IMG/VR virus record: IMGVR_UViG_3300046694_000231
Coordinates: 1 to 43,769 of that record
Length of the DNA: 43,769 nucleotides
Direction: 5' to 3' (one strand)
DNA from: a virus
Every line of letters begins with the position of its first letter. Position 1 is the first letter of the stretch. Both the position numbers and the translations under genes were made by a program. Shown piece after piece: positions 30,109 to 33,616 of this stretch. Under the pieces are notes generated by a model. It did no database searches and was not told where the DNA came from. It saw only the letters and a list, made by a program, of their open reading frames with translations.

Positions 30109-30303
30109 CTAAGCAGCGTTTTTTTGCGAAGGAAACGGGCGCAGCTCTTTCGCCTCGAAGCCACCAGCAGGTAGCTGAAGCACGCGGATATCGCGTTTCG
30201 CAGATAGCGCCTTGTGGATTGCGGGGGCGGTTACGCCAAGGAGCCTGGCTGCTTCCGACTGCCCTTTCTCAGCCACAAATGCAGCGAGGGTGGTTTCATT
30301 CAT
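30109..30303 (-). CDS. cro: Cro-like repressor
   Basis: The protein has 64 residues, with one helix-turn-helix at about 15-34 (QSEAARLLGVTAPAIHKALS) and a short strand (RDIRVLQL) for dimerisation. The gene is first on the pR transcript, has a GAGG ribosome site, and faces cI across three operators. It should favour lytic growth by blocking the cI promoter. The short C-terminal tail (PFPSQKNAA) is basic, as in other Cro proteins. Confidence 0.88.
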   Translation of the reverse strand: MNETTLAAFVAEKGQSEAARLLGVTAPAIHKALSAKRDIRVLQLPAGGFEAKELRPFPSQKNAA

Positions 30304-30333: not shown

Positions 30334-30362
30334 ATATTAACCATCTGTTAACTCTCAATCAA
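30334..30362 (-). promoter_or_regulatory. pR promoter of the lytic operon
   Basis: On the minus strand, TTGATT (complement of 30357-30362) and TAATAT (complement of 30334-30339) are separated by exactly 17 bases. The -35 touches the middle operator and the -10 overlaps the cro-proximal operator, so repressor binding would block it. The cro ATG lies about 25 bases downstream of the predicted start. Confidence 0.75.
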
Positions 30363-30399
30363 TACCGATGGTTTCTTCTTATTTTTAACCATTGGTTTA
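30337..30399. promoter_or_regulatory. OR: three phage operators at 24-bp spacing
   Basis: Three 15-bp near-palindromes are centred on 30344 (TTAACCATCTGTTAA), 30368 (complement GAAACCATCGGTATT) and 30392 (TTAACCATTGGTTTA). Centre-to-centre spacing is 24 bp twice, about the spacing in lambda OR. The consensus TTAACCAT.GGTTAA recurs at OL (32739-32778). CI and Cro are the natural ligands. Confidence 0.85.
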
Positions 30400-30409: not shown

Positions 30410-31297
30410 ATGACAAAGAAACGCATCCTCCCCGCCGACCGCATCGCCGAGTGCACAGCTGCTCATGAGCTTTTTTTGGCCAAGAAGAATGAGCTGAAGC
30501 TCAGTCAAAAGAAAATCGCCGACGAAGCGAACATGACACCGGCTGCTGTGAACCTTTATTTCAAAGGCATCAACCCCTTGAACGCTCAGTTCGCGGCCGT
30601 GCTTTCTCGAGTGCTGCAAGTCCCTGTGGAAGCGTTCAGCCCTCGCCTGGCTGACGAAATTAAGGGCTTGTCTCGAGTACAGGCCGTCGCCGCGCCTTCG
30701 AGTGCAGCGGACCAGGTGAAGAAGATGCTGGCGAAGCACGGGAAAGGGCTTCCCGAGGAAACTCGGCAGAAGATCGCCGACGCCGTTACCGAGTCGCTGG
30801 CCGAACAGGCGCTCGGGACGGCAGACCAGAGCAACGTGATCGTTGCAGACTTCTCACGCCGGGCGCCGGTGGGCGACGAGATCCGTATTGCCCACTACGA
30901 CGTCCAGGGCGCCATGGGCAACGGCAAGCAGGTGCACGACTTCCCCGAGCTATTCAAAGACGTCACGGTCAGCCAGCAGCACCTTCGCGAGCTGGGTGTG
31001 AAGTACGAAGACCCCCGGCACCTGAAAATGATCACCGGCGACGGCCAGTCGATGGCGCCGACGATCCAGGACAAAGACCCCATGATCGTGGATGCCAGCA
31101 TCCGCGAGTTCACCGGTGACGGGATCTATGCGTTCACCTGGCAAGGCCTGTTCTACATCAAGCGCCTGCAGCTGAAGGGCGGCGAGCACTTCAAAATGAT
31201 CTCGGACAACGCTCTCCACTCCCCAGAAGAAATTCGGGTGGATGAAACCTACATTCAGGCCAGAGTTCTATTGGTTTGGAACGCAAAAAGACTTTGA
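30410..31297 (+). CDS. cI: CI-type repressor, HTH plus S24 peptidase-like domain
   Basis: The protein has 295 residues. The N-terminal helix-turn-helix lies at about 30-52 (LSQKKIADEANMTPAAVNLY). A long alanine-rich helical linker follows, then a LexA/CI-like C-terminal domain with Ser214 (GDGQSMAPT) and Lys251 (FYIKRLQL), spaced 37 residues as in LexA. At the place where cleavable relatives have Ala-Gly, this protein reads VQGAMGNG, and no Ala-Gly or Cys-Gly pair occurs in the linker. Self-cleavage is therefore doubtful, although the dyad is intact. It is likely leaderless. It should hold OR and OL and keep lysogeny. Confidence 0.93.
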   Translation: MTKKRILPADRIAECTAAHELFLAKKNELKLSQKKIADEANMTPAAVNLYFKGINPLNAQFAAVLSRVLQVPVEAFSPRLADEIKGLSRVQAVAAPSSAADQVKKMLAKHGKGLPEETRQKIADAVTESLAEQALGTADQSNVIVADFSRRAPVGDEIRIAHYDVQGAMGNGKQVHDFPELFKDVTVSQQHLRELGVKYEDPRHLKMITGDGQSMAPTIQDKDPMIVDASIREFTGDGIYAFTWQGLFYIKRLQLKGGEHFKMISDNALHSPEEIRVDETYIQARVLLVWNAKRL

Positions 31298-31388: not shown

Positions 31389-31727
31389 ATGTCGGACAGC
31401 AACAAGCCTGCCGAACATAAATTCGCAGTCAGCGGGGATGACTTCATTCGATTTCTGAGGGAGAAAACCGATGAGGTTGCATGCCCGGCGTGCGCCTCAA
31501 ACGAGTGGACAATTTTTAGCCTTACGGAGCCCGATCAGGCCTACCGGCTTATTACCCCCCTCAAATCGGCTGCTCACTCCTCCTTTGTAAACATGCTTGC
31601 TCTCTACTGTGATGAATGCGGCTATGTGCGGCATCATTTGGCGCGAATTGTTAAGGAATGGGTGACCCAAAACCCAGAAGCTCAGGGCCAGCTTGAACTC
31701 GATGAGCCGGAAAATGACCCAATATAA
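31389..31727 (+). CDS. Zinc-ribbon protein, first of a pair downstream of cI
   Basis: The protein has 112 residues. After SGDDFIRFLREKTDE come two CxxC pairs (CPACASNEW and CDECGYVRHH) separated by about 45 residues. This makes a split zinc ribbon like those in small phage and host proteins that bind nucleic acid or ribosomes. The end is acidic. A GGAG ribosome site lies seven bases before the ATG. The gene overlaps the next by 14 bases and should be made in lysogens from the cI transcript. Function unknown. With its partner it is a candidate exclusion or defence pair. Confidence 0.75.
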   Translation: MSDSNKPAEHKFAVSGDDFIRFLREKTDEVACPACASNEWTIFSLTEPDQAYRLITPLKSAAHSSFVNMLALYCDECGYVRHHLARIVKEWVTQNPEAQGQLELDEPENDPI

Positions 31728-32310
31728 TAAGAGCGATGAGCCAACCGCTGAAGCGGTGAAAGGCAAGCTGCAGCTTGCGTCCCGTGCGCAATTCAAGCAC
31801 CCAGACGTTCATACGCAACCAAATGCTGACAACACGCAAAGGGAGGGAGATACTTCTTCCATGAACGAATTCAGCCGCCAAGAATTGGATGCGAAACTTC
31901 AACTCCTTGAAGAGCGAATGGCATCGCGCTCCCAGTTAGTTGAGGGGAAAATTGATGTTTTCCTTGCGGCGCAAGTTGAGCGGGATAGACGCGTTGAGGC
32001 CCAGGTGAACTCCTCGATCACTCTTAGCGATGAATGGAACCAGAAATTCCGCCTTCTATCAGAGCAAGCCGTAACAGCTGCTAACCGCGCGGATAGTTCC
32101 GCGGCTGAGGCCGCGACGCTAAAAACGCATTTTTGGGCGAGTGTCGTCGCTCAACTAATTGGGGTTGGCGCGATCGTAGTCGGGGCCTACTTCGCCAACC
32201 AGGCGAATGTTTTTTCGGCCATCTCGACCACCATAAGCGCGATGCAGGTTGTTAAGGAGGCCCCGCAGCTACCCGCGGCACCACCTCCGCCCACTGCATC
32301 TCCGAAGTAA
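31714..32310 (+). CDS. Coiled-coil membrane protein, partner of zinc-ribbon gene
   Basis: The protein has 198 residues from the ATG at 31714, which lies inside the end of the preceding gene, so it is translationally coupled. Residues about 1-50 are polar and probably unstructured. A long helix follows (ELDAKLQLLEERMASRSQLV, then QVNSSITLSDEWNQKFRLLS), with coiled-coil character to about 140. One membrane segment (VVAQLIGVGAIVVGAYFANQ, about 148-168) and a proline-rich tail (LPAAPPPPTASP) complete it. The topology suggests a cytoplasmic sensor anchored in the inner membrane. It ends just before a terminator. Confidence 0.75.
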   Translation: MTQYNKSDEPTAEAVKGKLQLASRAQFKHPDVHTQPNADNTQREGDTSSMNEFSRQELDAKLQLLEERMASRSQLVEGKIDVFLAAQVERDRRVEAQVNSSITLSDEWNQKFRLLSEQAVTAANRADSSAAEAATLKTHFWASVVAQLIGVGAIVVGAYFANQANVFSAISTTISAMQVVKEAPQLPAAPPPPTASPK

Positions 32311-32319
32311 TTGACTTTC

Positions 32320-32346
32320 AAGCCCCGCCAAGAGCGGGGCTTTTTT
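32320..32346 (+). terminator. Terminator of the cI operon
   Basis: AAGCCCCGC-caaga-GCGGGGCTT followed by a T run forms a strong Rho-independent terminator on the plus strand. It closes the transcript that carries cI and the two genes after it. The DUF1654-like gene converges on it from the other side. Confidence 0.9.
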
Positions 32347-32353
32347 ATGGCTG

Positions 32354-32668
32354 CTAGAAAGGAATCTCGGCCTCAGTGACCGATTCGTCCTCGCGCACGG
32401 GCGGCGAAACCCCACCCTCTTCCCTCTCCCAGCTCACCATCACGTTGCCGTCGTCATCGAATAGCAGGTGAAGCCCGTCGGTTTCGGCCAGCAGCCCCAT
32501 CACCCCATCCCACGCTTCATCCTCATCCGTGTCCAGGCGGTGAATCAACACGCTCCGGTTCATCTGCGATATAGGCGACTGGATCATTGCTGACACCCTC
32601 AGGCCCAGGCGCTCAAGCCCCGTTAGCTCGACCTTCTCCGTGATTTCCGCCGACTTCTTTCTGGCCAT
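32354..32668 (-). CDS. DUF1654-like protein under LexA control
   Basis: The protein has 104 residues. The pattern LTGLERLGLRVSAMIQSP, then QMNRSVLIHRLDTDEDEAWD and LLAETDGLHLLFDDDGNV is what I know of DUF1654, a small family found mainly in Pseudomonas and its phages. The function is not established. An AAGGAG ribosome site precedes the ATG. A LexA box lies 16 bases upstream of the start codon. The gene is read against cI and pL and lies between cI and OL. That position, with DNA-damage control, is what one would expect for a gene that helps switch the prophage on. Confidence 0.8.
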   Translation of the reverse strand: MARKKSAEITEKVELTGLERLGLRVSAMIQSPISQMNRSVLIHRLDTDEDEAWDGVMGLLAETDGLHLLFDDDGNVMVSWEREEGGVSPPVREDESVTEAEIPF

Positions 32669-32684
32669 TCGCCGCTCCTTTTAG

Positions 32685-32700
32685 CTGTATACCCATACAG
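32685..32700. promoter_or_regulatory. LexA (SOS) box of the DUF1654-like gene
   Basis: CTGTATACCCATACAG has all eight fixed LexA-box bases. On the minus strand a TATACA -10-like hexamer lies inside it. Bound LexA should block the gene at 32354-32668. OL begins 38 bases further along, so LexA and CI sites sit back to back in one small regulatory region. Confidence 0.88.
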
Positions 32701-32738
32701 TAGCAGCAAAAGAATAACGCACAGCCTGCAAAAATAAA

Positions 32739-32778
32739 TTAACCATCGGTATTGACGTTAAAATATACCGATGGTTAA
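32739..32778 (+). promoter_or_regulatory. OL: two operators with pL promoter
   Basis: TTAACCATCGGTAT (32739-32752) and its exact inverted copy ATACCGATGGTTAA (32765-32778) are centred 25 bp apart and match the OR consensus. TTGACG (32752-32757) lies between them. A weak -10 (TAACTT, 32776-32781, 18-base spacer) overlaps the second operator. This is the expected plus-strand promoter for the operon ending in the integrase. Confidence 0.8.
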
Positions 32779-33439: not shown

Positions 33440-33616
33440 ATGCTGATTCTCACCCGCCGAGTAGGCGAAACCCTGCAGATCGGCGACGACATCACCGCAA
33501 CGGTGATGGAAGTGAACGGCAACCAGGTGCGCATAGGCATCGCGGCGCCAAAGGACGTGAAGGTCATGCGGCCTGAAGCGAAGTTGAAGCAGCCCAAGCT
33601 GGCCAGCGCCTGCTGA
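33440..33616 (+). CDS. csrA: CsrA/RsmA-like translational regulator
   Basis: The protein has 58 residues, short enough to be missed by length filters. [18 protein letters not shown], then [17 protein letters not shown] is plain CsrA. The RNA-contact residues Leu4, Arg6, Arg7 and Arg44 are kept. From residue 45 the usual EEIYQRI helix is replaced by a proline-containing basic tail ([14 protein letters not shown]), so the dimer's outer helix is probably altered. CsrA homodimers bind GGA motifs in mRNA leaders and change translation or stability. A phage copy could retune host or phage messages at early times. It has an AAGGAGAAGG ribosome site. Confidence 0.93.

Follow-up and report, generated by a model that had tools for sequence, protein, structure and literature searches.

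Among the closest described systems to the locus studied here are GfoA and GftA of the Gifsy prophages, Tum of phage 186 and AntC of phage N15, which, like the DUF1654 gene, are small, phage-borne and controlled by LexA (PMC3121763). The original prediction for this locus was modelled on the Gifsy prophages, and proposed that the DUF1654 protein is a candidate antirepressor of the neighbouring repressor CI. The Gifsy repressors, however, are without an S24 domain altogether (PMC3121763), and this comparison therefore does not carry over to the repressor described below. For DUF1654 itself, a single paper naming the family was found, which gives no functional data (PMC13028781), and no report of its function was found in the open-licence literature.

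The immunity region and the LexA box

The analysed stretch of DNA, referred to as the window, is an IMG/VR virus record of 43,769 bases from a Pseudomonas virus. In its immunity region, cro is located on the minus strand (30109–30303; Pfam Cro, E 5e-16) and cI on the plus strand (30410–31297), with the three operator copies of OR between them (30337–30399; sites at 30337–30351, 30361–30375 and 30385–30399). Two further genes follow cI on the plus strand. The one at 31389–31727 matches phrog_4293 and has a weak zinc-ribbon similarity, below the Pfam cut-off, while the one at 31693–32310 has no family match and possibly a later real start. Inspection of the sequence revealed a terminator-like inverted repeat with a T run (32320–32346, plus strand) that separates the cI transcript from the DUF1654 gene. 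The latter, which begins with ATG and encodes 104 residues, is on the minus strand (32354–32668) and is convergent to cI and to the two genes after it, all of which run in the same direction. OL, formed by two inverted operator half-sites with the same motif as OR (32739–32753 and 32764–32778), is located at 32739–32778.

The assignment of the gene to DUF1654 was confirmed, since the PF07867 profile scored 74.2 bits on the protein, above the curated cut-off of 27 (E 7e-21); the protein also matches phrog_2707 and has counterparts in the homologous loci described below. DUF1654 is its only Pfam match, and the OB-fold SSB domain PF00436 is not found in it. The predicted position between cI and OL is also right, but two genes intervene on the cI side and the DUF1654 gene faces cI.

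Upstream of the gene, at 32685–32700 on the minus strand, lies the LexA box CTGTATGGGTATACAG, a palindrome that reads CTGTATACCCATACAG on the plus strand. It agrees with the consensus CTGTAT-N4-ATACAG at 12 of 12 bases, as originally described, and only one other perfect match, at 1701–1716, occurs in the whole window. The spacing of 38 bases between the box and OL was likewise upheld, given that the OL half-sites match the three OR sites. We infer that the box covers the promoter of the DUF1654 gene, which LexA would repress and DNA damage would release.

Other features of the window deserve mention. The box at 1701–1716 is located 22 bases before a 79-residue gene without known family (1739–1978), after which comes a gene for an SRAP protein (SOS-associated peptidase; 2032–2739). 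The 79-residue gene had been put forward as a second candidate for the antirepressor; it is indeed a small gene with a LexA box, but the phage collection contained no relative of it. The pair of genes at 31389–32310, in line with cI before OL, occupies the position that holds toxins or ParA in other phages of the set, and may be cargo of the lysogenic state, for instance defence genes; a PADLOC defence scan gave no match for these two genes nor for the DUF1654 protein. To the right of OL, a CsrA/RsmA-like gene is present (33440–33616), and several related phages have CsrA-like or global regulators annotated at comparable positions.

DUF1654 in prophages and on chromosomes

Including the window, 182 DUF1654 loci were gathered from annotated phages, viral contigs and bacterial contigs, mostly Pseudomonas prophages. 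The predicted arrangement holds across the family: a LexA-like box with at most three mismatches is found just upstream of the DUF1654 gene in all 182 loci, and in 174 of them an S24-type CI gene is located downstream on the opposite strand. Among 166 distinct upstream sequences the CTG...CAG bases of the box are invariant, which, together with its presence in every locus, places the arrangement beyond chance. In phage LKA5, LexA sites before the DUF1654 gene are already marked in the annotation. The stop codons of DUF1654 and cI are separated by 37 to 4,792 bases (median about 1.4 kb), with less than 200 bases in 36 loci, and the gap often holds other genes, such as those for BrnT and YafO toxins or ParA in annotated phages. 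All 92 aligned DUF1654 relatives match phrog_2707, with no other common family in PHROGs.

A second, divergent DUF1654 gene was observed in phage P54 (L017, 3632–3871), on the opposite strand and back to back with the first. One DUF1654 prophage contig, L151, is filed under Streptomyces, probably as a result of contamination; the family was otherwise seen here in Pseudomonas and Azotobacter. In phage LESphi3 a one-mismatch LexA-like box (L014, 5002–5017) lies near the start of a BrnT-toxin gene directly downstream of cI, and a one-mismatch box has the matching place in LPPA33 (L020, 5024–5039); such boxes would possibly make the toxin SOS-switched.

DUF1654 is common in Pseudomonas genomes (103 of the 120 surveyed) and in many temperate phages, without an assigned function. 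The chromosomal copies in Pseudomonas resemble those of the prophages in the core motif and in a perfect or near-perfect LexA box, but differ in the tail of the protein and, in the four loci read widely, in the absence of a nearby CI relative. A LexA box with two mismatches or fewer precedes each of the 33 high-scoring chromosomal loci that were read, and none of the 33 proteins has an SSB-like tail, their ends being PKED or PKDD. Four of these loci were read over 13–14 kb each; their neighbours include an asparaginase-like gene and a sugar ABC transporter, and no relative of the prophage CIs was detected there with the CI profile, whose sole hit in the chromosomal search was weak and belonged to a separate mobile-type locus. 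As the chromosomal branch also carries LexA boxes, an SOS role would be a trait common to the DUF1654 family. DUF1654 would thus be an SOS family first, with the prophage copies forming one branch of it, and its members in general are then less likely to act exclusively as antirepressors.

An SSB-like C-terminal tip

In the DUF1654 protein of the window, three parts can be recognised, all encoded on the minus strand. A folded core comprises residues 16–83 (32420–32623), delimited by the Pfam match, and is predicted by AlphaFold2 as helix-helix-strand-helix-hairpin, with pLDDT above 90 over most of its length. It is followed by an acidic linker of residues 84–98 (32375–32419), predicted to be disordered (pLDDT below 50), and by the C-terminus EAEIPF, residues 99–104 (32357–32374), which resembles the tip of SSB. 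For the AlphaFold2 core, Foldseek found nothing below E 0.001 in the PDB or BFVD, and a sequence search of the PDB with the protein was likewise negative.

SSB recruits repair enzymes through a short C-terminal tail. The tip of this tail is DDDIPF, of which Ile-Pro-Phe is needed for function (PMC5872125, PMC10143822), and in the same Pseudomonas genomes SSB terminates in DFDSFDDDIPF. The DUF1654 C-terminus is similar to that of SSB in its acidic residues and terminal Pro-Phe on a disordered linker; unlike SSB, it is carried by the DUF1654 core and not by an OB fold, and the residue before Pro-Phe is usually Ala, where SSB has Ile.

This C-terminus, which the original account of the gene had overlooked, is widespread. 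Pro-Phe ends 153 of the 182 prophage-type proteins, and 142 of the 162 distinct ones do so after an acidic stretch. More than 80% of the proteins ending in Phe carry acidic residues at positions −5 and −6, position −3 is mostly Ala, and the tip reads EEx-A-PF in most members. In an alignment of 92 sequences, hardly any variation is seen at P103 and F104, in contrast to the variable linker that precedes them; linker and tail together, counted after W80, span 10 to 41 residues and have a mean net charge of −7.75. The same loci also served as a control, in which about 11,000 complete ORFs with a length of 60 residues or more were searched for acidic-PF ends. Besides DUF1654, only three ORFs had them, and all three were SSB according to Pfam.

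Roughly one in ten of the distinct proteins, namely the F116, LKA5, LESphi3, TC7 and phi297 groups, has no such tail, so it is not essential for every member. About nine changes of tail state were placed on the DUF1654 tree, indicating that the tail was sometimes lost or gained.

The CI repressor and the possible role of DUF1654

The CI of the window has 295 residues, with a lambda-CI-like DNA-binding domain in its N-terminal part and an S24 domain in its C-terminal part (Pfam). The Ser-Lys dyad is present in the motifs GQSM and IKRL, and the hinge, a putative cleavage site, is M-G (GAMGNG), rather than A-G or C-G. The original prediction started from Gifsy-like repressors incapable of self-cleavage, and suggested asking whether DUF1654 genes in other prophages sit beside non-cleavable cI genes. 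This premise does not fit the domain structure: a full S24 domain is found here, and the 174 neighbouring cI genes are all of S24 type, with the serine motif in every one and a recognisable lysine motif, hence the dyad, in 170.

Among the 174 CIs, the hinge dipeptide is M-G in 150, L-G in 9 and A-G in 15. CIs with an M-G or L-G hinge are paired with a PF-tailed DUF1654 in 148 of 159 loci, and those with an A-G hinge with a tail-less one in 15 of 15 loci, plus nine further loci. On the DUF1654-core tree, however, the hinge state changes about four times, with only two independent pairs on supported branches; given these few changes, the link between hinge and tail is taken as a lead, which chance or common descent may also explain. 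In Mantel-type tests against the two CI domains, DUF1654 distances covaried with distances in the C-terminal one (rho about 0.3) but not in the N-terminal one. This signal is above that of most control gene families, is matched by two other neighbouring families and does not fall with physical distance. Being modest and partly reproduced by controls, the covariation was not taken as proof of an interaction with CI; both interaction and linkage are compatible with it. Covariation and hinge-tail pairing hint at, but do not prove, some connection with CI. In related loci, CI N-terminal domains seem to be freely exchanged, whereas the S24 domain remains with the side of DUF1654; this pattern points to a recombination joint within cI.

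On these grounds, the 104-residue protein probably manipulates host DNA repair during the waking of the prophage, rather than directly disabling CI. For the more specific proposal, that a LexA-induced protein docks on host repair or replication proteins which interact with SSB, we put the chances at about even, judging from sequence and structure prediction. DNA damage would remove LexA, and the DUF1654 protein would appear as the prophage induces. Its tip would then dock on RecO, ExoI, RecQ, PriA, HolC or DnaG, as candidate partners, and either compete with SSB or carry the DUF1654 domain to them, by which host single-strand DNA repair or replication restart might be steered toward the inducing phage. 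Against docking, the tip is mostly EEx-A-PF and not DDDIPF, the groups named above lack it, and neither the PDB nor BFVD offers an informative match to the core fold; the constant position beside cI is also left unexplained by it.

A LexA-controlled antirepressor would, after DNA damage, bind the CI C-terminal domain and free OL and OR, alone or by aiding self-cleavage. The constant convergent place opposite cI, the covariation restricted to the CI C-terminal domain and the association of hinge and tail speak for it. Nevertheless, the CIs retain the S24 Ser-Lys dyad, and DUF1654 also occurs beside CIs with an A-G hinge and on chromosomes without a CI relative (the four loci read widely); furthermore, two neighbouring families show the same modest covariation, and the association of hinge and tail reduces to the few tree changes mentioned above. 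The antirepressor gains little from this analysis, and we consider it unlikely. An effect on CI might also be indirect: acting via RecO or another mediator, the protein would shift RecA loading and hence the rate at which LexA and CI are cleaved, as a feedback on the SOS response. Such a modulator would unite SOS control, the SSB-like tip, the chromosomal branch and the place by an S24 repressor, but the chromosomal form has no tip and a contact with RecA or RecO is conjectural, so that this role appears quite improbable.

It is very doubtful that the DUF1654 core has some other SOS function, with the acidic-PF end serving, for example, in protein turnover; the core is conserved in tail-less chromosomal proteins and gave no informative fold match, yet SSB is the sole other bearer of acidic-PF ends in the set. 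Least credible of all is an effect of transcription and not of the protein, in which SOS transcription that begins at the LexA promoter extends into cI, or determines the state of the divergent PL, and thereby lowers CI. The convergent orientation and the 36 loci with close stop codons would suit it, but the median gap is long and contains other genes, a terminator-like repeat intervenes in the window, and protein and tail are strongly conserved.

With its conserved LexA box and SSB-like tip, DUF1654 can now be tested as an SOS protein, and its candidate partners are few. Should the tip bind as proposed, phages would use the hub of SSB partners when they induce, and the tip peptide would naturally compete with the SSB interaction, which is a pursued antibacterial target. 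We also see a small chance that, in temperate Pseudomonas phages, an SSB-tip mimic beside cI, triggered through LexA, rewires RecO/RecA loading or restart during the SOS response and so sets the speed at which the S24 repressor is cleaved; if true, prophage induction would have a class of control acting via the SSB interaction hub, by means of a relative of a host SOS gene fitted with a tail.

In the open-licence literature searched, no report of phage mimicry of the SSB tip of this kind was found. Compared with GfoA/GftA, Tum and AntC, no family match ties the DUF1654 protein to any of them. Their genes are located outside the immunity region, whereas the DUF1654 gene is inside it, with its box close to OL, and the CI beside it, its candidate partner, has an S24 domain.
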